DNA of 20,564 bases from a virus: the IMG/VR virus record IMGVR_UViG_3300037076_000264, positions 1 to 20,564 of that record. One strand, written 5' to 3'. Shown piece by piece: positions 5,900 to 20,564 of this stretch. Below the pieces are notes generated by a model. The model ran no database searches. It had not been told where the DNA came from and worked only from the letters and a program-made list of their open reading frames with translations. Made by a program: the position numbers and the translations under genes. Every line of letters begins with the position of its first letter. Position 1 is the stretch's first letter.

Positions 5900-8800
5900 A
5901 TGGGATTCTTTGGCGGCACCGCTCCATCTAGTAAAACGTACTATCAAAGCCTCTTGCAATCCCTTATCTCAGGAGCGAGTCATCTTTTTCTGTTCTCAGG
6001 CCCGCTTCAAAGTTTGAATGATCAGTCTGGAAAGGGCGCAACTCTTACGAGAACCGGCACAACATTGACTTCTCAGGGGTTATCTTTTAACGGCATATCA
6101 GATTATGCAACTATTTCGCCAGTACCTACTCTTGGCTCACAATTTACAATCTATGCCCTGATTGATAATATTCAAAACAATCCTTTTGGCAATGCACAAA
6201 CTTATTTGGGCATACGTCCTTCTACTGGGGGCAATTATAATGTTGCTTTGTTGATGAGAGATAACGAGGCGAGCGTAAACTTCAGTGGTACTACTATATA
6301 TATTCCTACTGCTATAAATGGTGCTAACAATATAAACCCGCAGCAAATTCGTACTGGTTTTCAGCTTGTCACTTTACGGTATGATGGTGCTCATTTGCAG
6401 ATCTTAATCAATGGTGAGGTGCAAAAAAGCATCCCGCAAACGGGGACTCCAACAGTCGGAAGCACACCTATTTTTACCATAGGTGCTTTGTTGCAAAATG
6501 GCGGCGGCGGATATTACGACTTTGAGAACATAGTGATTGCAGCCCTTGCGGTCTATCCTACCGCCTGGCATAATGATGCCACTGTTCAGGCAAATGCCAA
6601 TATGTTGGGATTGCTTACTGGTCAGACTGTTTGGCCGACTCTACCACCAGGGCTAAGGGATAGCAGCGATCCTTACGCTCCGTTTATGTACCTCAGTTCC
6701 GGTGTTTTTCCCGAAAATCAGTGGGTGGAGTATCGAACGACGATCAGTTATACCAGTGGTGCATATCCTGTTCAATTGGCAGCTTCAGGGGAAGCTCGAC
6801 TCTACGTGAACGGACAATTAGCCATCGCATCATGCGGTAGGTCAAATTATTTCACGGTAGCACCCCGGCAGGTGGATATTTCGCCCTACCTTGTCAGCGG
6901 GACAAATGTTTTAGTTATAGAGCATTATCAGCAAGGCCGTCATCTCGATCAGTACAAAAGGAAAATCGATCTGCCTTATGCTGGGGTGATGCTCTACGAC
7001 ATGGCGACCGGCAATGCAAATTCCGGTACGGCTTGGAAATGTAGGGTTGCGCCAGAATATACGGCTCACTCTTGGATGCGTAGTGACACCCCTAGCACAC
7101 CTGGGTTTGATCAAATGAATCACTGCATCGTCTATAATCTCGCGAACTGGACAAATATTCATTCCACAAGCTACGATGCCAGTTCTTGGGCAAATGCCGT
7201 AGTAGTGGTTTTCGACCAGAGTCAGTGCAGGGTTTGCCAGCCTAACTGGGCTACGAGTTATTTTCTGAATACTTATACTCCGGTTTCAGCACAAGTTGGC
7301 TCCAGCACTGATCCAGGAGATTCAGCTTATCCTACATGGTCTCCTTGCCCGATGGCACAGCGTATTGCCACGGAGACCTGTGCCTTAAATGGATCAGGTG
7401 CAACGGTTTCATATAACGCTTCGACGAATACGGTTTCCATGCAGAGCGGTGCTTCTGATGCCTTTGCTACATTGGACTTCGGTGCTTTTCGCTATGGCAC
7501 GATTAGCCTGACCATCACGTGTCCGGCAGGGACAACGGGCGAATTGGACGTTGCTATGTCTGAGAACCGGGCAGATGCTACAGGGCATGCAGATCCGACT
7601 ACTTTATATGCCCCGATGGGAGCAGATCGTATCCTGTTAAGCCCTGGCACGTTTACGGTCAGATTAGGATTCGCTGCCTATGCGCCCCGCGGCGGTCGGT
7701 GCTTGCTTCTGAGAGCTAGAGGAACAGGTGGCGCTACAATCACCATTGTTCCCATAATCGAACACGCCAGCTATGTTCAAAATACAGGGTATGTTCCCAC
7801 GATTTCAGACACAACAATGCAGGGATACCTTACAATCTCTCAGAATGTTTTAACTGCTCATCTTCAGGATGTTAGGCTCGATCATTCTGTCCGAGACGAT
7901 GGGCAATTTATCCAAGATGCGTGTGCCTGTTCAAAGGCTGACCACTGGCTGGGCGGCTCAAATCCGTACAGAAAGATTCTTTTAGATCAGAGCAGAGACA
8001 TCTTTTATACAAATACCAATTGTTTTAGCAATTGCCCCCCAGATCTAGGTGCTGATGCTGGCGCTAAGATTGATTGGTCATTCTTCTTTGTCTACAACTT
8101 GTACGATGAATACTGGTGGACTGGTAATGTCGCTACATTACAAAGTCACTGGGACGCTCTATATCGTTTTATAAGTCAGATCCCGAATCAAGGCACATAT
8201 CTTACTGCTGCTGCTCTAACTGCTGCAGGATATGTATGGTATGGAGAACCCAGTGGCACTCATCCCCTAGATATGCTGATCATCAATGCCCGGTTTGTTA
8301 CGACTCTCCAACGGGCAGTGTATATAGCTCAGACTCTGGGGCAGAGTGCGGTCGCGCAAGCGTGGTCAACATGGGCGCAAAGCATCATAACTGCGATACA
8401 AGGTTGGAGAACACCCTCAAGCGGCCCCGTTCCGGCGCACCCAGTTTGCCCTTCTGCTGCGGGTGGATTGTCTACGTTTTCATTCCCTGGGGTGATGATG
8501 TCGCTAGTAGCAGGTGCAATTCCATCGGGGGATATCGCGCCACTGATCAGTTACCTGGCTCCTACTTCTATCCCAATTCCACCGAGCGGTGGAGATGACT
8601 GGAATATATGGTCGCATCTCTACGAATGGCCCGTTGCCGTGAAGCAGAATGGTGGCAATCCGTACCCTTGGCTGGATGCAGTATTAGCTCCTTTTGTGGC
8701 CGTTGGGTATCTGATTGAGAATCGTTTGGTAGGAGTTTTCCCTATGACGGCAACAAGCACCAATACGAAATCACACGCCTGGACTGGATCGGGTTTTGCG

Positions 8801-9049
8801 GGGTTTGTGGAAGGTGTGTTAGGCATCTCGATAGTGGCACCCGGTGGTGGGATTGCTTTCAACCCGGTGCTTGGATTGCCGAATCTGAATTTCACGTTAA
8901 ATAGCCCTGTCGGAATTTTCAACGTGCAAAAGTCAGGGACAACCTGGACTGTCACGGCTCCAACGGGTGGCACGATGCAGGTTGCTATAGCGGGAAACAG
9001 TACAATGACCCTGAACGCGGGACAGACAATTACTTTAACGGAAGTTTAA
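5900..9049 (+). CDS. LamG plus GH78-type alpha-L-rhamnosidase, putative virion depolymerase
   Basis: This 1049-residue enzyme probably removes alpha-L-rhamnose from a host surface polysaccharide. Residues ~25-230 are a LamG/concanavalin-like domain (SLNDQSGKGATLT, LSFNGISDYATI, LQILINGEVQKSI). Residues ~250-370 are the rhamnosidase N-terminal beta-sandwich (ARLYVNGQLAIASCG). Residues ~640-945 are the (alpha/alpha)6 barrel, with LDHSVRDDGQF at 660-670, KIDWSFFFVYNLYDEYWWTG near 723-742 and YEW at 908-910. Residues ~957-1049 are the C-terminal beta domain, starting KSHAWTGSGFAGFVEGVLGI, the usual GH78 hallmark. I infer acidic residues D666/D667 and E909 lie near the active site but cannot assign catalytic pairs. 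The SD AAGGAGG overlaps the preceding gene. G+C is clearly lower than in the head genes (24 of 60 bases in 6241-6300), suggesting acquisition. An intracellular role is less likely given the location. Confidence 0.8.
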   Translation: MGFFGGTAPSSKTYYQSLLQSLISGASHLFLFSGPLQSLNDQSGKGATLTRTGTTLTSQGLSFNGISDYATISPVPTLGSQFTIYALIDNIQNNPFGNAQTYLGIRPSTGGNYNVALLMRDNEASVNFSGTTIYIPTAINGANNINPQQIRTGFQLVTLRYDGAHLQILINGEVQKSIPQTGTPTVGSTPIFTIGALLQNGGGGYYDFENIVIAALAVYPTAWHNDATVQANANMLGLLTGQTVWPTLPPGLRDSSDPYAPFMYLSSGVFPENQWVEYRTTISYTSGAYPVQLAASGEARLYVNGQLAIASCGRSNYFTVAPRQVDISPYLVSGTNVLVIEHYQQGRHLDQYKRKIDLPYAGVMLYDMATGNANSGTAWKCRVAPEYTAHSWMRSDTPSTPGFDQMNHCIVYNLANWTNIHSTSYDASSWANAVVVVFDQSQCRVCQPNWATSYFLNTYTPVSAQVGSSTDPGDSAYPTWSPCPMAQRIATETCALNGSGATVSYNASTNTVSMQSGASDAFATLDFGAFRYGTISLTITCPAGTTGELDVAMSENRADATGHADPTTLYAPMGADRILLSPGTFTVRLGFAAYAPRGGRCLLLRARGTGGATITIVPIIEHASYVQNTGYVPTISDTTMQGYLTISQNVLTAHLQDVRLDHSVRDDGQFIQDACACSKADHWLGGSNPYRKILLDQSRDIFYTNTNCFSNCPPDLGADAGAKIDWSFFFVYNLYDEYWWTGNVATLQSHWDALYRFISQIPNQGTYLTAAALTAAGYVWYGEPSGTHPLDMLIINARFVTTLQRAVYIAQTLGQSAVAQAWSTWAQSIITAIQGWRTPSSGPVPAHPVCPSAAGGLSTFSFPGVMMSLVAGAIPSGDIAPLISYLAPTSIPIPPSGGDDWNIWSHLYEWPVAVKQNGGNPYPWLDAVLAPFVAVGYLIENRLVGVFPMTATSTNTKSHAWTGSGFAGFVEGVLGISIVAPGGGIAFNPVLGLPNLNFTLNSPVGIFNVQKSGTTWTVTAPTGGTMQVAIAGNSTMTLNAGQTITLTEV

Positions 9050-9102
9050 TTGCGGGAAGCAGGAATACCCTGGCACATTAGAGAATCATCCCCTATACTA
9101 TT

Positions 9103-9109
9103 AGGGAGG
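9103..9109 (+). promoter_or_regulatory. Strong ribosome binding site pointing to an ATT start
   Basis: AGGGAGG lies 8 bases before an in-frame ATT (9118), but 44 bases before the first standard start (TTG, 9154). It is the only strong SD in the gap, so it bears on where the methyltransferase begins. Confidence 0.5.
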
Positions 9110-9153
9110 CGATATCCATTAACGTTAACTGTCTCGTTTTTGGGGTATTAAAC

Positions 9154-9786
9154 TTGTGCGATGAAGAGATAAGAGGCAAACGAGTCTTGGAGGTAGGATC
9201 GCGCAACGTAAATGGTAGTTTACGGCCTATCATTGAGCGGTCATCCCCAGCAGACTACATTGGTGTAGATATAGAAAACGGCCCTGGGGTTGACATGATC
9301 TGCGATGCAGATAAGCTAGTCGATGTTTTTGGTTCAAACAAATTTGATTTAGTAGTCTCAATGGAGATGCTGGAACACGTTAAGGATTGGCAGAAGGTAA
9401 TATCTAATATTAAAAAGGCGTGTAATCCAGGTGGCGTGATTTTAATAACTACAAGGTCATACGGTTTTCATTATCATGCCTATCCATATGATTTCTGGCG
9501 TTATGAGATGAACGACATGAAGGAAATATTCAATGATTGTGAAATCTTGGCATTGGAAAGCGATGGTAGTTTACCAGGTGTGTTTATTAAAGCAAAAAAG
9601 CCGAGTGATTTTCAAGAAAACAACCTTTTAAACTATGGACTCTACAGCATGATAACGAACAAAAGAATACCTAAGATAGAAGACAAGGATTTTCGTTGTA
9701 AACATTATCGTCAAACTATAATGCGACTTAAAACAAGCGGGTTTATTGATCAATGCATGATTAGTGTTGGAAAACATTTAAGCTAG
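9154..9786 (+). CDS. SAM-dependent methyltransferase, class I (Methyltransf_11-like)
   Basis: This 210-residue protein, counted from TTG, likely transfers a methyl group from S-adenosylmethionine to a small molecule or sugar. The SAM-binding motif I is VLEVGSRNVNGS, followed by the acidic loop YIGVDIENGPGVD, the motif FDLVVSMEMLEHV, the post-motif strand CNPGGVILITTRS, and an aromatic stretch YPYDFWRYEMNDMKEIF. I know this combination from a family frequent in surface-polysaccharide clusters and phages; the substrate is unknown. Relatives, as I recall them, begin with an extra ~12 residues resembling the in-frame codons 9118-9153 (NVNCLVFGVLNL), so the real start may be ATT at 9118. The gene is AT-rich (23 of 60 G/C in 9361-9420 against 36 of 60 in the capsid gene), a sign of transfer. 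A rhamnosidase remnant begins right after its stop. Confidence 0.8.
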   Translation: MCDEEIRGKRVLEVGSRNVNGSLRPIIERSSPADYIGVDIENGPGVDMICDADKLVDVFGSNKFDLVVSMEMLEHVKDWQKVISNIKKACNPGGVILITTRSYGFHYHAYPYDFWRYEMNDMKEIFNDCEILALESDGSLPGVFIKAKKPSDFQENNLLNYGLYSMITNKRIPKIEDKDFRCKHYRQTIMRLKTSGFIDQCMISVGKHLS

Positions 9787-9863
9787 CCCTTCTCGCGCTT
9801 AATGGGAGAAGTAATAATCTGACCCTGAATCCGGGGCAGAAAGTGGCGATTGCTGAAGTTTAA
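9787..9863 (+). pseudogene. 3' remnant of a second rhamnosidase gene
   Basis: The plus-strand frame ending at TAA 9861-9863 reads [17 protein letters not shown], then KVAIAEV and stop. The intact rhamnosidase ends AIAGNSTMTLNAGQTITLTEV and stop. They align without gaps over the last 15 codons, with the same TLNxGQ core and the same EV-stop. About 32 of the last 45 bases are identical, counted by eye. No start codon or upstream domain remains, since the methyltransferase stop is immediately before it. It is best explained as the tail end of a displaced allele. The acetyltransferase overlaps it on the other strand. Confidence 0.65.
9788..9800 (+). repeat. 13-bp direct repeat, left copy
   Basis: CCTTCTCGCGCTT here is identical to 10492-10504. 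The two copies bracket the acetyltransferase gene. This copy also begins a hairpin, CTTCTC (9789-9794) pairing with GAGAAG (9806-9811). Confidence 0.7.
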
Positions 9864-10449
9864 CCCATTCTCCATTATCGTTTCGCTTTTTGATTGGTTT
9901 ACAAGGAACACCAACAGCTAATCTTCCCGGTTTTATGCTCTTGGTCACTACTGAACCGGCACCAATTACACAATCATCACCGATGGTTACTCCAGGAAGT
10001 ATGCAGACGTGAGTACCGATCCAGCATCTTTTGCCTATGCTAACGGGCTTGATTTCGAGAAGCATAAGTTCTGGTAACTGTTTAAAAGTATCGGGAGTGG
10101 AAAAGCCGTGGTTGTTATCGCAAATGAAAACATAGTCAGCAATTAGTGTGCCTTCACCTATTATCAACTTCCCAGCGCAAGCAATATGGCTAAACCAATT
10201 GACCGTAACATTATCCTCAAATATGAATTCTGGTGAAAATAATTTGCCATGATATTGAGCTACAGCCTGGATTCTGCAGTATTGTCCTATTGCTACGTTA
10301 TTTCCTAGTTTGATGTACTTACCGTTAATAATTGTTGTGCTAGGGGCGATAAAGCAGTTTTTACCTTTAGCATTAATTTTTGAAAGGTTATGCAGAGATC
10401 GTAGTTTAGATATCGACCCCAAAACAAACTCTATTGGACTCAATGCCAT
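9799..10449 (-). CDS. Left-handed beta-helix O-acetyltransferase (WcaF/maltose acetyltransferase type)
   Basis: This 216-residue enzyme of the hexapeptide-repeat family probably acetylates a sugar hydroxyl using acetyl-CoA. Hexapeptide-repeat turns run from about residue 35 to 185. DNNHGF (111-116) holds the likely catalytic His114. The C-terminal part [30 protein letters not shown] and [12 protein letters not shown] is the family hallmark. I start it at ATG 10449; a TTG codon just before it (10452) is also in frame, and AAGGAG lies only three bases upstream of the ATG. The last ~19 residues, from LQQSPLSAP on, are read from the antisense of the rhamnosidase remnant and are not typical of the family. 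It is the only minus-strand gene here and very AT-rich (20 of 60 G/C in 10321-10380), as expected of an independently expressed accessory gene. Confidence 0.85.
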
Positions 10450-10491
10450 CAACTCCTTCGAATGAGGTTTTCTAGGTGTTTTGTTTAAAGT

Positions 10492-10975: not shown

Positions 10976-11824
10976 ATGGCTGCTCCGACAGTAACCAGCA
11001 TCAACCCGACCCGCGGCGTCACAGCAGGCGGGCAGAACGTGGTCATCAACGGCACTGGATTTTCCGACGTTACGGTTGTCAACTTCGGGACTGTTCCCGT
11101 TTACCCAGGAACGATACCGATAGGCTTCCCGGGAGGCGTAGGATTTTCCATCAACACTGCCGGCAATCAGATATTTGCCGTGGCTCCTCCCGGGGCAGCC
11201 GCGCAGGTAGATATAACCGTCACCTCGCCCGAAGGCACCAGCGCCACCAGCGCCAATGATAAGTTCACCTACCAGACGCCGGGCTACTTCAACACCGTGG
11301 CTGATGTCGTCACTTATGCGTCCAACAACCTGATCAGAAAGACGGTGGCATATTCAGACGCGATCCCCTGGATCAACGACTGTATGCAGACAGAGCTTCT
11401 TGACGATGCCTGTCTGTTCAACAATTGGTCAATCCAGCAGCCTCTCTACAATGTGGGCTATGCCGTGCCGCCTGACTTCATACGGGTGTATGCGGTCTAC
11501 GATAGCAACGGCGATGACTTCAGCGACTACGAGTGTGACAGCGCCTACATGTGGTTTGACTACGGCGCCTCGCTCTACACGGTGAGATATTACCAACTGC
11601 CACCGATAGTAACCAACATGTCCGGGACTGACCCGTTACCCTGCCATCCGCTGATCGCCAATGCGCTTCCGTACTACTTGGCCTGGGCTTTCGCTAATCC
11701 CGATTACCCTTCAGACAAGGACACCAATCAGAGGTACGCGCAGTTCAGGACTAAGGTGCAGTTTGCCTTAGATCGGATGCAGAAGAGGCTCAACAGGACA
11801 ATTAGGGTGAGCTCATTCAGATAG
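10976..11824 (+). CDS. IPT/TIG domain fused to a head-tail adaptor-like protein
   Basis: Residues 1-98 form an immunoglobulin-like IPT/TIG domain, seen in PTVTSINPTRGVTAGGQNVV, INGTGFSDVTVVNFG and VDITVTSPEGTSATS. Residues ~105-282 are a helical part like the small adaptor proteins between portal and tail in podoviruses: FNTVADVVTYASNNLI, DAIPWINDCMQTELLDD, YYQLPPIVTN, HPLIANALPYYLAWAFANPD and a C-terminal basic helix, FALDRMQKRLNRTIR. The adaptor call rests on this motif pattern and on the position just before the nozzle gene. IPT domains are usually found in surface-binding proteins, so here it may decorate the neck or help receptor contact. The start codon directly follows the preceding stop. 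No catalytic residues are apparent. Confidence 0.65.
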   Translation: MAAPTVTSINPTRGVTAGGQNVVINGTGFSDVTVVNFGTVPVYPGTIPIGFPGGVGFSINTAGNQIFAVAPPGAAAQVDITVTSPEGTSATSANDKFTYQTPGYFNTVADVVTYASNNLIRKTVAYSDAIPWINDCMQTELLDDACLFNNWSIQQPLYNVGYAVPPDFIRVYAVYDSNGDDFSDYECDSAYMWFDYGASLYTVRYYQLPPIVTNMSGTDPLPCHPLIANALPYYLAWAFANPDYPSDKDTNQRYAQFRTKVQFALDRMQKRLNRTIRVSSFR

Positions 11825-12138: not shown

Positions 12139-13569
12139 TTGCCGGCATATCAGGCGAACCGCGTAGATGATTTCAGCGAAGGCTTGCTGGACAGAATCTT
12201 GGATTCCAAGATCCCGCCTGGTTCGGCTCAATCTTGCGCGAACATGATCGGCTGGCAGACGGGTGCCCTGGATAAGCGCAACGGCCAGGCGCACCTCAAC
12301 GCGTCTCCGCTTGCAGGACCCATTCAGGGGCTCTACGCCTGCTACATCGGCGGGGTGAGGCAGATACTTGCGGCGGCCAACGGATCTGTCTATGCCTGGA
12401 TAGCGGGTGCCTGGTCATCCATCTACTCCGGTCTCAGCACTACAGCGCCGGTCAACTTCACAACCCTGATCAACCAGGTAGTGGGATCGGACGGCATCCA
12501 CCAACCATTTAGCTATACCGGATCTGGATCGGCTACGGCACTCACAGGCGCTCCCGTTGACGGCCAGTTTCCGATCTTCTTCAAGGATAAGCTGTTCATG
12601 GTGCCGACAAGCGATCCCTCTAATGCCCGGTGGTCAGCAGATTTCTACCCCTCGGATTGGACGAACCTGCAAAACTTCTGGCAGGTCTCTCAGGGTGATG
12701 GAGACACGATCACGGCCTGGATCAGCTTCCTCAATGATCTGGTGATCTTCAAGCGGTATTCCATCCACGTCCTCAAGGGCGCATCCCTCGAAGATTTCTC
12801 CATGGTGGATTATCCGACCGGCACCGGTTGCGTGGGAGCGCAAGCACTGTGTCAGTTCAATGAGCTTGTCTACTTCGTGGCCGACGATGGCCTGTATGTT
12901 TTCGATGGTGTGGACGTGTCAAGCATCAGCTACGACCGCATACCCAACTGGTTCATGAACAACGTCAACATGGCGGCGATCAGCAAGGCGGCCTGCGGGG
13001 TGTGGCGTAACTGGATCTGGTTTGCTCTGCCGACAGGCTCATCCACCACCAACAACGTCGTGATGCTCTACATCCCCCCTGCGTCAGGAGCGACCGGGGG
13101 CAAGTTCTTTCCCTTGACCGGGATCAACGCTCAGCAATTTCTCAGATATAACACCGGTTCCGGGCTGAAACTCTACGCTGGAGACCCGAGCGGCTACGTG
13201 AACCAACTGGACATTGGCTCAAGCGACTTCGGCAATGCGATCAGCGCCTTCTGGATACCCCAGACGGTGGATTCAAATATAGGCTCCTACAAGTACCTGG
13301 GGAAGGCTTCGATAGCCGATACGCCGGGCTGGACTACCCGGGCGGATCTCTTCGCTGCAATCGAGGATTCCGGCTCCTACGTCCAGGCCACTGTGGACAC
13401 GGAGCTTACCGACAGCCTGCATGAAGTTTTCAGGGTTCCCAGCATTTATAGATTCCATCAACTGCAGGCTAAGATTTCGCATACCTACCTGGGATCGTAT
13501 CAGGTGAGAAGTCTGGTTCTGGACATCGCATCGAAGGCAGGACAGCCACAACCGAAGAAAGGAGCGTAA
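12139..13569 (+). CDS. Beta-propeller tail-nozzle/hub protein (P22 gp10-like role)
   Basis: This 476-residue protein is all-beta, with repeated propeller-blade patterns: LYACYIGGVRQILAAANGSV, FKDKLFMVPTSDPSNARWS, FLNDLVIFKRYSIHVLKG and FNELVYFVADDGLYVFDGVD. I know the segment DGDTITAWISFLNDLVIFK as typical of short-tail nozzle or DNA-stabilisation proteins that extend the neck and hold packaged DNA. It starts at TTG, with GAAGAGG upstream in the preceding small gene. Placement after the adaptor and before the tailspike fits the P22-like order adaptor, hub, spike. Whether it is the gp10 hub or a fused nozzle cannot be decided from sequence alone. Its C-terminus, KAGQPQPKKGA, is short and basic, and its last codons hold the SD of the tailspike. 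Confidence 0.72.
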   Translation: MPAYQANRVDDFSEGLLDRILDSKIPPGSAQSCANMIGWQTGALDKRNGQAHLNASPLAGPIQGLYACYIGGVRQILAAANGSVYAWIAGAWSSIYSGLSTTAPVNFTTLINQVVGSDGIHQPFSYTGSGSATALTGAPVDGQFPIFFKDKLFMVPTSDPSNARWSADFYPSDWTNLQNFWQVSQGDGDTITAWISFLNDLVIFKRYSIHVLKGASLEDFSMVDYPTGTGCVGAQALCQFNELVYFVADDGLYVFDGVDVSSISYDRIPNWFMNNVNMAAISKAACGVWRNWIWFALPTGSSTTNNVVMLYIPPASGATGGKFFPLTGINAQQFLRYNTGSGLKLYAGDPSGYVNQLDIGSSDFGNAISAFWIPQTVDSNIGSYKYLGKASIADTPGWTTRADLFAAIEDSGSYVQATVDTELTDSLHEVFRVPSIYRFHQLQAKISHTYLGSYQVRSLVLDIASKAGQPQPKKGA

Positions 13570-13573
13570 CTGA

Positions 13574-15868
13574 ATGGGCATTGCCGTACCTGTAACCCAG
13601 CTTCCCTGCAACATAACATCGCAATTATCACAGGCGTCGCTTTTGTCTGCTTTGCAGCAGAATTTCGCGGCTATTGTGGCTGGGCTTCAGGCGACGCAGG
13701 GCTATTGCAATAATGCCGTGGCTCCGGTGATCGACCTTTCTTCTATCGCCAATTCGGAGATTCTGGGTTCGCAGGTAGCAGGGTTCGCCCGGCCTTCGGT
13801 TGCCTACACGGAAGAGGGCGTGCAGGTACAGACGCATATCCCGCGGTACGAGCAGATCGATACGAACGACTTTTTGTATGGGCTGCTGATGGAGGAAGGC
13901 ACGACCAACATAGGCTTATATAGTGAACAATTTACCAACGCGATGTGGGCAAGCAGCGGGACAATAGCAGTTACCGACAACGCGATTGTGGCCCCGAATG
14001 GAACTATGACGGCGGCAATCCTGGCTGGATCTACGGCAGGAGCGCATAGATACCAACGGATGACCGGTTATAACCCTGCGGGTAAAACAATAACCTTTTC
14101 CGTTTATCTAAAGGCTCCCTCCCCTTGCACTTGTAAGTTTGATGTTGGTGGCTATGGCGGACCAGACAACTACTCTCCCGCTCTCTCGGTAACAACGTCG
14201 TGGCAACGGTTCTCGTTCACTGCAACTTTTACATCTGGCCAGACCAACGATCTCTGCCCATTCATTGAAATGGATACCAATACGATCCATGCGTGGGGTG
14301 CACAGACTGAAGTTAGGCCCTACGCTACTTCCTATATGCCGACCACCAATGCGTCCGCTACTCGCTCCCCCGAATCCATGATCATCCCTACGGCCAACAT
14401 CTTCACGCCGGGGAGTTGGACGGTGGAGATGCGCTATACGCCGAAAAGCACGGTTACGGGATCGGGGAGCCTTGTTTTGTGGAGCATAGAAAACGGCTCT
14501 ACCAGCAATCTCTATGAGATGGGGGTTAACACTGCCGGGCGATTGTACTTGAGCACAAAAAGCGGCGGCGCGCAACTTGCTATCACTGGTTCCAGCGCGC
14601 TCCAAGTAGGTACAACTTATGCGATATTGGCATCTGGCAATGGTGCACAACTCACTCTTTGCTGCAATGGTGTCCAGTTTGGGCAGATAACTTACATTGA
14701 ACCTGTTGGCACACTACCCTCGATGATGAATATTGGATGGGCGCAGACTACGGGGGCGAATCAATGCAATGGCATCCTCGACGATCTCCGCATCTCCAAC
14801 GTCGCCCACACCATCACCGACCACAAGAACTACATCAGCAGCAACCAGCCGCTCCCTGTGGACGCCAACACGACGCTGAAGATGGACTTCGACCAGACGC
14901 TCAGGCAGACCTCAGTCCAGAGGCTGACCAACATCCAGGGCACCTTCACAGTAGCCGACGCTCTGACCACAAGCGATCCGAGCAAGGCGACGCATATCGT
15001 ACCTACCGGATGGACAACGGCTGAGGCAACGATCATGCAGGCGATGAGCGAGTTACCGGCTACGGGCGGGAGTATTGTGCTAATGGATGGGACGTTCAAG
15101 GTAGATGGGAAAATAGTTGTTCCATCCTTAGTGAGTTTACTTGGGCAGGGAGTATCAACGATAATTTATGTTAATACTATACTCCCTGATTGTGCAGTCG
15201 GTGATAACGTGGCACTGACGAGCAACGGAATTTCAATTACGTCCTTCCTTTTGCAAGGAAACAATGAGAGCTTTGGAATACGGTTGCTAAGTTCTACGGG
15301 ATGCCTGGTTAGCAACATCCAATTCAATAGTTGCGAGTATCCTATCTGGCTTGCAAGTAATAACAACACAATAACCAACAATATTATCAATGGAACTCCG
15401 ATTGGCAGTGGAATATCGATCTGGTCAAACAATAGCACAGTAAGCAATAATCAATGCTTAAATTGTGCATATTCTGGGATATACATAGGTGGTTCATACA
15501 ACACCGTAAACAACAATCAAGTTAATAACAATGGATGCGATGGGATAGAGATAGATAGTGGCAATCATAACACTGTATCAGGCAACAATTGTCAGGGGAA
15601 TGGCACTCTTACGAACAATACATATAACAACATAGAAGTTGTTCTGGGTAATTATAATAATATCCAAACAAACACATGCAGGGCAGGGGTTGGAGCCAAT
15701 AAACCGCATGCCGGCATTAGGGTAACAAGCGGCATATCAAATCTTGTTGCATCTAACGACTGTTATACCGGGGGCTCAACGGCTGGTCTTTCAGATTCAG
15801 GCACCACAACCAGCTTTGGTGCTGGCAACCGGGTTAATTCTGGGGCGTGGTCTACGACGCCGAGTTAA
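13574..15868 (+). CDS. Tailspike with carbohydrate-binding, LamG and beta-helix domains
   Basis: This 764-residue receptor-binding protein likely attaches to, and may cut, a surface polysaccharide. Residues 1-100 probably anchor it to the tail. Residues ~110-255 form a jelly-roll domain frequent in phage spikes (LYSEQFTNAMWASSG, KTITFSVYLKAP). Residues ~270-420 look like LamG (GSWTVEMRYTPKS, LDDLRISNVAHT). Residues ~480-755 are a right-handed parallel beta-helix: NTI/STV/NTV/NTV steps fall near 598, 621, 643 and 666, a 22-23-residue period. No catalytic pair could be picked out. G+C changes inside the gene: 35 of 60 bases at 14821-14880 but 21 of 60 at 15481-15540, so the helix part was probably swapped in from another source. 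The ATG follows AAAGGAG. Confidence 0.8.
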   Translation: MGIAVPVTQLPCNITSQLSQASLLSALQQNFAAIVAGLQATQGYCNNAVAPVIDLSSIANSEILGSQVAGFARPSVAYTEEGVQVQTHIPRYEQIDTNDFLYGLLMEEGTTNIGLYSEQFTNAMWASSGTIAVTDNAIVAPNGTMTAAILAGSTAGAHRYQRMTGYNPAGKTITFSVYLKAPSPCTCKFDVGGYGGPDNYSPALSVTTSWQRFSFTATFTSGQTNDLCPFIEMDTNTIHAWGAQTEVRPYATSYMPTTNASATRSPESMIIPTANIFTPGSWTVEMRYTPKSTVTGSGSLVLWSIENGSTSNLYEMGVNTAGRLYLSTKSGGAQLAITGSSALQVGTTYAILASGNGAQLTLCCNGVQFGQITYIEPVGTLPSMMNIGWAQTTGANQCNGILDDLRISNVAHTITDHKNYISSNQPLPVDANTTLKMDFDQTLRQTSVQRLTNIQGTFTVADALTTSDPSKATHIVPTGWTTAEATIMQAMSELPATGGSIVLMDGTFKVDGKIVVPSLVSLLGQGVSTIIYVNTILPDCAVGDNVALTSNGISITSFLLQGNNESFGIRLLSSTGCLVSNIQFNSCEYPIWLASNNNTITNNIINGTPIGSGISIWSNNSTVSNNQCLNCAYSGIYIGGSYNTVNNNQVNNNGCDGIEIDSGNHNTVSGNNCQGNGTLTNNTYNNIEVVLGNYNNIQTNTCRAGVGANKPHAGIRVTSGISNLVASNDCYTGGSTAGLSDSGTTTSFGAGNRVNSGAWSTTPS

Positions 15869-16243: not shown

Positions 16244-17662
16244 ATGAACCGCATCAGAAGGATACTGAAGTTCTCTCTGTTTGCCTTTGGATCTGTCTTG
16301 ATCGGGGATTACTCAGCCTACAATGGCAAAGTCACGTACAGCAACGACCCTGCTCACCCGGTAGGCTCGACAGTATCTTCAGGCTCTTCAACATCGTCAA
16401 GCCAGAGCAACGCTGCGGCAGTGGCGGCATCGAATAAAGGTAATGCAATCAGCCCCACCGTTGCTCCTGCTACGGGTGGCGCTCAGTCTGCGGCGAACTC
16501 CTTTGGCGCATCTGATGGCACGTACTGGCCTACTGCGGCGGCAGCAGCCACTCACCAGGCTACTATCAACGCGGCGCATGGGGTAGCGACAGCAGCGCCA
16601 GCGCAAGCAGCCACTACCACTGCCCCGGCAGCGACCACCCCCGCTTCTACCGCGCCGGCTACCACCACCGCACCAGCATCTTCAACGAGCGCGGCGCAGC
16701 AATCGCTCCTGACCCAGCTACAGTCGATCATCTCAGGCATGTTGCCTTCTCAAACAGCGAACAACGCCCCTTCATCCGCGCAGATCGGCACCCTGGCGAA
16801 CCAGTACGCGCAACTTCAGGTCGATCCCCAGCTTACGGCCTTGCAGAGCCAGCTTGCAACCGCTCAGACGCAGGAGCAGGGGCAGATTTCACAGATACAG
16901 GCAGCTAACTCCCAACTGCCGCAGGAGGCTCAAACGATGCTCACCAACGCCCGGCAGCAGGCAATGGATGACGCCGCAGCCAGAGGCGCAGGAACGAGCG
17001 GAGTCTATGACTACGACAACCAGCAGTTATCGACCCCGATCATGGAGCAGGTCAACGCCGCCAACGCTCAATCTACAGCATCTCAGCAGGCAGCCATAAA
17101 TCAGTTAGCCACTACGAACGCTAACATCGGCAACCAGACAACAGCCCTGGGAACGCAGCAGGGGCAGATCGCCTCTCAGTACGCCGAGAGCCTGAACGAG
17201 TATTACACTTCGGCGGCGAATCAGAGCTTCCAGGGCATGGTGAACGCTGCCCTGGCTTTAGAAGCCCTTGGAGCGCAGATGGCAACTAGCGGCTCCGTTA
17301 CCCCGGGGACTGTAGGCGTCGGAGCAAGCGGCCAGGCTCAGGCAGGACTACCCGTAGGCACAACCGTAAACACGGCAGGCGGCAATTACACGATCACCGG
17401 GACGAATCCTAGTGGCGGGTATACCAGCGTACCGGCAGCAGGATCGACAACGCCAACGGCTCCCGCTACTTCAAGCGCCCCAACCGAATTGAGCACTGCT
17501 GTCACGGCGGCGGGCGGCACGATCTCTTGGGATCAGGCTACAGGAAACGTGACCATCAATGGCAAGGTTTATACTAAAACCGACCTAACACGAATGGGCG
17601 GTACTCTGAACGCCGACAACCACTGGTATCTGCCTCAGAGCGTGATTAGCCAGTTAATTTAA
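16244..17662 (+). CDS. Ala/Thr/Gln-rich putative ejection or internal virion protein
   Basis: I chose ATG 16244 because GGAGGGG (16231-16237) is six bases upstream; an ATG at 16229 would place the SD inside the ORF. The 472-residue protein has a basic then hydrophobic N-terminus, MNRIRRILKFSLFAFGSVLI, like a short membrane or signal segment. A Ser/Ala/Thr-rich low-complexity region (~40-155) with repeated TTAPAAT-type units follows, then a Gln-rich helical part (~155-330). The C-terminal ~50 residues (AAGGTISWDQATGNVTINGK) resemble the beta domain called copper amine oxidase N-domain-like, found in Firmicutes wall-associated proteins. Position in the ejection block and composition suggest an internal virion protein that enters the envelope with DNA. 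This is inference. Confidence 0.65.
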   Translation: MNRIRRILKFSLFAFGSVLIGDYSAYNGKVTYSNDPAHPVGSTVSSGSSTSSSQSNAAAVAASNKGNAISPTVAPATGGAQSAANSFGASDGTYWPTAAAAATHQATINAAHGVATAAPAQAATTTAPAATTPASTAPATTTAPASSTSAAQQSLLTQLQSIISGMLPSQTANNAPSSAQIGTLANQYAQLQVDPQLTALQSQLATAQTQEQGQISQIQAANSQLPQEAQTMLTNARQQAMDDAAARGAGTSGVYDYDNQQLSTPIMEQVNAANAQSTASQQAAINQLATTNANIGNQTTALGTQQGQIASQYAESLNEYYTSAANQSFQGMVNAALALEALGAQMATSGSVTPGTVGVGASGQAQAGLPVGTTVNTAGGNYTITGTNPSGGYTSVPAAGSTTPTAPATSSAPTELSTAVTAAGGTISWDQATGNVTINGKVYTKTDLTRMGGTLNADNHWYLPQSVISQLI

Positions 17663-19716: not shown

Positions 19717-20564
19717 ATGGCAGATTGGGATTTCTCTCAAACGCCAACAACAAATACAGGCACAACTCCCGGGTGGAATTTCTCCGCCCTCCCTTCTGAT
19801 GTGCAGGCCGCCCAGCAGCAGGCTCAGTCTGCCTATCAGCAGCGCGAGGCGAATCCTGCTCAGGCGCGCTCTGATACGCTCGGTTCAACCATCGGCGGCC
19901 TCGGTGAATCGATCTACAAGGGCGCTGACCTGGAGAACCTGGTTGACAGCCTCCGGGGGATGTCCGACAAGGATAAATTCATCCAGAGTGTGCGCTATGG
20001 GCATGTTACCCCTACCGCGGCAGACGTAGAAAAGTACGGCCTGACCGCCGACGACTTGGAGCAGAATCAGATCAACTCCGGCAAGGCGCAGGGAATAGCT
20101 CACGGTGTCGGGCAGTTCGCCGGGGGGATGGTTCCCTGGTTGGCAGCCGGCGCATTGACCGGGGGTGCCGCGGACGCCGTTGGCCTGGGAGCAGAGGCGA
20201 TGGAAGGAGCTCCCCTGCTGGCCCGTCTTGCCGCGGCTATCGGTAGGGGCGCAGTAACAGGCGCAGGAGTGACTGGTTATGATGCCCTGATGGGCGAGAA
20301 GCCGACCGGCAAAGACCTCGCGCAGAACATAGCCGTAGGTGGCGCTTTCGATGTAGGCGGGACGGCGGCGGGGCTGGCAGGACAGGCGCTCAAGTTGCCA
20401 CAGATGATCTCCCGGCCTGTCGGCGCTTTCGTCGGTGGTTCGGCAGGGGCTCTGGCGTCAGGACAGCCCTCCCCATTGAAGCAGGGTGGGACGATGGCGG
20501 CAGTAGAGGCGCTGATGACCGCCCTTGGTGGCCGTGGAGCGTTTATGCCGGGCGCTCCCAATGC
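19717..20564 (+). CDS. Putative ejection protein with glycine-rich membrane segments, 3' end outside the window
   Basis: An open frame starts at ATG 19717, seven bases after AAGGAGAT, and runs to the right edge without a stop: 282 complete codons are visible. The first ~120 residues are polar and Gln-rich (DVQAAQQQAQSAYQQREANP), with a helical acidic segment (MSDKDKFIQSVRYGHVTP, ADDLEQNQINSGKAQG). From residue ~128 it becomes Gly/Ala-rich and hydrophobic: GVGQFAGGMVPWLAAGALTG, GGTAAGLAGQAL and GAFVGGSAGALASG. These look like glycine-zipper segments that can insert in membranes, as expected for an ejection protein forming a channel for DNA entry. The full length is unknown, and large multidomain versions exist. 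The membrane role is inferred. Confidence 0.65.
   Translation, partial: MADWDFSQTPTTNTGTTPGWNFSALPSDVQAAQQQAQSAYQQREANPAQARSDTLGSTIGGLGESIYKGADLENLVDSLRGMSDKDKFIQSVRYGHVTPTAADVEKYGLTADDLEQNQINSGKAQGIAHGVGQFAGGMVPWLAAGALTGGAADAVGLGAEAMEGAPLLARLAAAIGRGAVTGAGVTGYDALMGEKPTGKDLAQNIAVGGAFDVGGTAAGLAGQALKLPQMISRPVGAFVGGSAGALASGQPSPLKQGGTMAAVEALMTALGGRGAFMPGAPN

Follow-up and report, generated by a model that had tools for sequence, protein, structure and literature searches.

Tailspikes of coliphages are modular, with exchangeable receptor-binding domains, and their conserved flanking motifs and DNA are proposed recombination hotspots in the part of the published account that was available (PMC10408124). 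Few phage proteins are as mosaic as tail spikes and fibres, and the accessible portion of a study of this mosaicism describes the shuffling as ongoing and as reaching across families (PMC10684548). An extract of one report (PMC10218006) describes measurements in which the head spike fibre of RcGTA binds capsular polysaccharide. A modular tailspike is a known kind of protein; the example described here is divided into three internal slots, and its base composition follows the slot.

The window is the whole of the virus record IMGVR_UViG_3300037076_000264, 20,564 bases in length. Its portal protein matches PF16510 P22_portal (E 9.6e-16) and its capsid protein NF033394 capsid_maj_Podo (216 bits; cut-off 80), the combination expected of a P22-like podovirus. 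The spike gene (13574–15868) encodes 764 residues and lies directly downstream of the neck gene, a position suggestive of a homotrimer mounted on the tail, the structure models being of single chains. Scans of viral contigs and genome contigs yielded three full-length homologues of the spike (L002, L007 and L008) and a fourth, L003, that is cut off by its contig end. The neck gene is used as the backbone yardstick throughout; its product has 71–96% amino acid identity among the relatives, the identical pair L002/L003 aside.

Features of the window and its relatives. Coordinates are those of the window unless another contig is named; identities are of amino acids.
Feature	Coordinates	Strand	Evidence and properties
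Variable cargo slot: rhamnosidase/LamG, methyltransferase, acetyltransferase (acetyltransferase on the minus strand)	5900–10452		Pfam matches
Neck gene	12139–13569	+	PHROG 3287 and 578 (head closure) matches
Conserved N-terminal anchor, residues 1–112	13574–13909	+	77–80% identity in distant pairs; GC3 0.65
Slot 1, residues 113–250, variable spike-fibre/carbohydrate-binding-like domain	13910–14323	+	NF048003
Conserved link, residues 251–292	14324–14449	+	56–77% identity to relatives; GC3 0.74
Slot 2, residues 293–396, LamG/ConA-like lectin core	14450–14761	+	Pfam PF13385; GC3 0.52
Conserved hinge, residues 397–508	14762–15097	+	85–89% identity; GC3 0.79
Slot 3, residues 509–732, AT-rich right-handed beta-helix body	15098–15769	+	PF13229; GC3 0.39
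Conserved C-terminal cap, residues 733–764 and stop codon	15770–15868	+	78–84% identity, three full-length relatives
Cargo slot, LamG protein	L002 2851–4458 (also L003)		535 residues
Cargo slot, two ORFs	L007 2009–3748		277 and 297 residues
Cargo slot, no gene	L008 5375–5390
Aspartyl protease domain gene after spike	L008 10264–10809	-	Domain match
CHAP domain gene after spike	L007 10357–10869	-	Domain match
Protease-like fragment after spike	L002 10336–10674	-	By eye

The gene neighbourhood has several further features. The adaptor gene (10976–11824) encodes 282 residues with one IPT/TIG domain; the adaptor has 383 residues in L002, L003 and L007 and 184 in L008, as if TIG domains had been gained and lost. 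An ORF between the adaptor and neck genes of L007 (5873–6457, leftwards) resembles an HNH endonuclease by eye. A secreted-looking gene directly follows the spike gene on the opposite strand and overlaps its 3′ end in L008, L007 and L002; among window ORFs of at least 70 residues there is no equivalent. G+C rises to 64–68% at the right end of the window (19951–20550).

Four conserved joints (anchor, link, hinge and cap) and three variable slots make up the spike protein. The anchor presumably attaches the spike to the virion and is 95% identical between L002 and L007. Slot 1 corresponds to a match to NCBIfam NF048003 GTA_spike_fiber (residues 105–265, 102.3 bits; cut-off 36) and is only 18–24% identical to the four relatives, one of which passes the same cut-off (L007, 48 bits; L003 scores 35, L002 28, and L008 has no match). 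Slot 2 lies within a match to Pfam PF13385 Laminin_G_3 (residues 271–413, E 3.7e-12) and is 34–41% identical to the three full-length relatives. Surface polysaccharide is the probable ligand of both slot 1 and the LamG core. The hinge ends with the N-cap and first coil of the beta-helix, the body of which matches PF13229 above its cut-off (residues 553–677, E 3.9e-11). A single-chain model of the helix built with five sequences (pLDDT 78.3, pTM 0.83) has the phage tailspike 6f7k as its nearest solved fold (TM-score 0.71 by query length, E 3.3e-6); its fold matches include lyases and epimerases, and also non-enzymes. The probable function of the helix, as in tailspikes, is to bind or trim a glycan. 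C-terminal beta-helix repeats behind a group-conserved N-terminal anchor are the features of a right-handed beta-helix tailspike. A full-length AlphaFold model (mean pLDDT 54.5) is too poor for the anchor and served as a first look.

The full-length homologues are 49–52% identical to the window protein in the best segment, and all three have the same order of parts. The AT-rich helix starts within residues 507–534 in each of them, with 2-lnL support for the GC3 change point at window residues 513–523, 512–534 and 507–516. The variable helix has GC3 of 0.24, 0.34 and 0.28 in the homologues and 0.39 in the window, and the hinge 0.75, 0.72 and 0.81, with 0.79 in the window; overall, helix GC3 of 0.27–0.40 stands in backbones of 0.62–0.70. 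Conservation and GC3 covary along the alignment (Spearman 0.71, 27 alignment windows). The C-terminal part of the helix, with 59–64% identity among the window, L002 and L008, has GC3 of 0.23–0.39. None of the group members found has a GC-matched helix.

The original prediction reported a fall in G+C from 58% to 35% within the gene, beginning near 15070 at the start of the beta-helix. The two values are exact (58.3% at 14821–14880 and 35.0% at 15481–15540) and the drop is real. Fitting two breakpoints to G+C along the gene places the AT-rich stretch at 15110–15678 (38% G+C, with 54% on both sides), so the step stands but was placed ~40 bases early, and its edge lies near the start of the helix, just past the conserved first coil, and not at the domain border. 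GC3 drops from 0.62 (codons 1–499) to 0.41 (codons 500–764); the value expected for the latter, from its amino acids and the codon usage of 11 further window genes, is 0.67 (z −9.0). A single GC3 change point is blurred in the window gene (2-lnL support at residues 457–510, tested within 397–640) because a very GC-rich patch of the hinge (14786–14948; GC3 0.96, above backbone level) directly precedes the AT-rich helix. The anchor keeps the composition of the phage, as had been proposed for both the anchor and the LamG part; the spike-fibre domain (GC3 0.49) and the LamG core both fall below the ~0.67 expected.

Helices of nine beta-helix spike genes from other phages, a hand-picked and non-random control set, were compared with their own neighbour genes and gave GC3 z values of 0.1, −0.5, −0.3, −3.3, −0.8, 1.4, −3.1, −1.2 and −3.9. 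The same test gives −9.4 for the window helix and −12.8, −8.2 and −11.8 for the three full-length homologues. One neighbour gene of L032 was left out of this test (frame problem), Myxococcus phage Mx1 (L026) is represented by the matched last 166 codons only, and L033 is excluded, its match being to the N-terminal part, outside the helix. The shift is absent from six of the nine controls and mild in three, and none has one of the size seen in the window, which argues against beta-helix genes being AT-rich by nature.

The clearest view of exchange comes from L002 and L003, which have five mismatches over their first 8,300 nt and one more single difference just upstream of slot 1. In slot 1 they share only 58% of amino acids and 64% of nucleotides, and the last 153 aligned bases after it, to the end of L003, are again without mismatch. 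Synonymous identity is 47/85 in slot 1 and 110/110 and 35/35 in its flanks, and within the shared part of the gene the two phages differ essentially in slot 1 alone. A second pair, L002/L007, has neck identities of 96% (amino acids) and 92% (nucleotides), and helix identities of 33% and 40% (amino acids) in its two parts. Synonymous identity in this pair is 84/105 in the anchor versus 47/102 in helix and cap (p 4e-7), so selection for altered amino acids does not explain the divergence by itself; in the helix alone synonymous identity is 37/77, versus 375/446 in the backbone (p 6e-11; counts rebuilt from fractions). The variable domain is therefore replaced between near-identical phages, slot 1 in the first pair and the helix in the second, and the predicted mosaic nature of the gene, with recombining receptor-facing parts, is borne out.

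Codon identity in the helix lies at 0.35–0.49 in all six pairs, where 0.38–0.44 is expected at random, and in the neck gene at 0.51–0.84 versus 0.38–0.40. Quartet bootstraps for L002 with L007 are 1.00 in neck and anchor and 0.02, 0.33 and 0.15 in slots 1, 2 and 3, the signal in slot 2 being unclear. These patterns support allele replacement over fast change in place, and slot exchange within the group is well supported; for the window's own gene we infer it from the group because the window has no near-identical partner. The longest exact words shared in the six pairs of the four full-length genes measure 19–36 nt in the hinge and 9–11 nt in the variable part of the helix. Homologous recombination could therefore start at the joints and would be the route of exchange. 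Synonymous identity of the hinge exceeds that of the neck gene in all five distant pairs (p<0.05 in three, with neck counts rebuilt from rounded fractions); strong codon bias in the hinge could be the cause.

Relatives of the helix were sought in phage records, plasmids and genomes. Ten phage records match the whole protein, all within residues 39–443, and none matches the helix; the helix on its own has no match among phage records, low-complexity filtering perhaps masking it. One plasmid record matches the whole protein (residues 88–292), and the helix of L019 has no plasmid match. A profile built from the C-terminal end of the helix and the cap matches four of 398 genomes of the phylum of L008, a contig of a genome labelled Peptococcaceae MAG that is itself among the four. 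The link to Bacillota is biased, because the genome search for the helix covered one phylum only. One match (genome G102) is in a 262-kb contig, L048, and belongs to a distant prophage syntenic with the window, with the same order of acetyltransferase (opposite strand), gene 10574, neck, spike, and genes 15886, 16229 and 17675; identities to the window are 33% (neck), 47% (portal) and 45% (capsid). Its spike has no detectable copy of the window's anchor. The hexapeptide acetyltransferase of L048 (14594–15184) is 34% identical to that of the window and has the same slot and the opposite strand. With the helix at the same place in a distant prophage of the lineage, Bacillota are the likely hosts.

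Helices in three of the matched genomes have GC3 of 0.35, 0.35 and 0.38 versus 0.43, 0.52 and 0.50 in neighbour genes (z −2.0, −5.4 and −4.7; the first, a weak shift, is that of L048). A related helix end is also found on a BppU_N anchor in an AT-rich phage contig (L013, IMGVR_UViG_2528768222_000002; 37% G+C), where the C-terminal helix part and cap are 40% identical to those of the window and a diverged cap ends the BppU-anchored protein. L019 and L021 carry the helix or its C-terminal part on other N-terminal regions; the frame analysis of these two took in L025, which has no passing frame of at least 150 residues. In phage Mx1 the gene part related to the helix C-terminus has a GC3 (0.68) fully matched to that of the neighbouring genes. 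AT-rich codons are thus no requirement of the fold, and some helix carriers lack the shift. No close donor was found: along the last ~130 residues, the nearest outside helices share 37–45% identity with the helices of the window, L002 and L008. The distant capsid relatives L040–L044 have no detectable anchor or helix of the window kind in the sequence covered. L040 contains a separate beta-helix-like ORF and, transcribed leftwards (17019–17603), a gene for a protein with a copper amine oxidase N-terminal (stalk-like) domain; this domain is common in Bacillota, and its presence is in line with Bacillota hosts.

A second variable site lies outside the spike gene, as predicted: the cargo slot that holds the rhamnosidase differs by lineage, with other genes in some relatives and none in another. 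The cargo genes of the window are also AT-shifted, with GC3 of 0.44 (rhamnosidase/LamG; z −17.1), 0.37 (methyltransferase) and 0.36 (acetyltransferase).

What the composition step means depends on how the helix came to its place. One reading, in line with the original prediction, is a graft: this phage alone would recently have taken an AT-rich helix in place of a GC-matched tip. The sharpness of the step, beyond any amino acid explanation, and the AT-rich relatives of the helix, found in genomes of Bacillota and on an AT-rich phage contig, would fit, but all three full-length homologues repeat the architecture and have the step at almost the same residue, and this, with the helix in syntenic L048, makes it a standing property of the helix module and not the trace of one host switch. 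The lack of any GC-matched helix in the group, and the greater identity of the window helix to those of L002 and L008 (55–57%) than to those of the outside contigs L019, L020 and L021 (36–38%), also count against a single graft, which is largely refuted by the homologues and is very unlikely as the main reading. Present as it is in each full-length relative examined, the AT-rich tip looks more like a module under recurrent exchange than a single graft. The alternative that the shared step reflects codons alone, with Asn-rich repeats forcing AT-rich codons without transfer, draws on the Asn share of 16% in residues 500–764 versus 6% in residues 1–499. With Asn removed, however, GC3 of codons 500–764 is still 0.40 against 0.66 expected (z −8.4), so neither Asn codons nor amino acid make-up explains the step, and Asn-rich control helices (0.12–0.13 Asn) range from z 0.1 (Mx1) to −3.3; the codon-usage check proposed with the original prediction rules this artefact out, and we give it almost no credence. 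Of the two parts of the refuting condition set by the original prediction, homologues sharing the full-length architecture and the shift do exist, but Asn codons as the sole cause do not hold.

A more serious competitor, which we nonetheless consider unlikely, is that an ancestral AT-rich helix has been kept with the backbone, its AT-rich codons maintained by selection at the level of translation, mRNA structure or coil folding while receptor pressure diverges the helix fast. The syntenic position of the helix in L048, the AT-richness of its better conserved C-terminal part, and the clustering of the four group helices (support 88/94, under the starred level of the tool) all agree with such descent, and the clustering would also fit one old acquisition with later exchange within the group. 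Against it stand the synonymous differences between the L002 and L007 helices despite nearly the same backbones, the replacement of slot 1 seen directly in L002/L003, and the fully GC-matched relative in Mx1. Targeted mutagenesis of the diversity-generating-retroelement type would account for extreme local variation beside identical sequence, as in L002/L003. The changes in that pair include every base type, as well as insertions and deletions, and are not adenine-specific; there is no direct repeat of at least 30 bases in the window, hence no template repeat of that size, and no reverse transcriptase among the scanned window proteins (part of the ORFs). We set its probability at practically nil.

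The reading that we consider probable is a modular receptor-binding spike on a podovirus-like phage, with slots that are exchanged and helix alleles drawn from an AT-rich pool. Conservation of the anchor, link, hinge and cap would keep the protein assembling on the virion, while the three slots would be replaced through homologous recombination with the alleles of other phages, so that the virion would bind or trim a different surface polysaccharide; a change of host range is a plausible outcome. Such a pool feeding the helix slot is the simplest reading of the composition: helix alleles would circulate in it, probably among phages and prophages of low-G+C Bacillota, and we propose that the helix body is AT-rich because they arrive faster than they adapt to the base composition of the carrier. 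A more far-reaching version, which we put forward tentatively and hold to be possible rather than probable, is a combinatorial host-recognition device with three independently exchangeable slots held by four joints, in which the carrier-independent AT-composition of the pool marks the source of a module.

Homologues should accordingly be checked before a G+C step within a receptor gene is read as one recent host switch. If the pool exists, such steps could trace phages that share receptor modules. L002 and L003 form a natural experiment in which one sugar-binding-like domain is replaced and the rest of the shared stretch is barely changed.

Searches of the literature, in the parts of it available, did not meet these phages or slot-specific composition, which does not establish their absence in print. 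Among related systems, the BppU-anchored protein of L013 shares a related C-terminal helix part and cap but differs in its BppU_N anchor and 37% G+C contig, with no hinge or LamG of the window kind seen. By fold, the window helix, compared as a model, is best matched by the Dettilon tailspike gp208 (6f7k), yet with 17% identity. The RcGTA head spike fibre has the same domain (NF048003) as slot 1 (102 bits); there it is on a head spike, and the window has it as one of the domains of a longer spike, whose gene follows the neck gene. Beyond the mosaicism described in the accessible portion of PMC10684548, the group offers a near-identical pair differing in essentially one domain, and a composition that follows the slot and not the carrier. 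With the coliphage tailspikes, as far as the available text of PMC10408124 goes, the window spike has in common a conserved N-terminal anchor, an exchanged receptor domain and conserved DNA around it; that text does not mention 'GC content'. The window spike, from an uncultured phage of an uncultured host, differs from those tailspikes in having internal joints, three slots and a conserved C-terminal cap.
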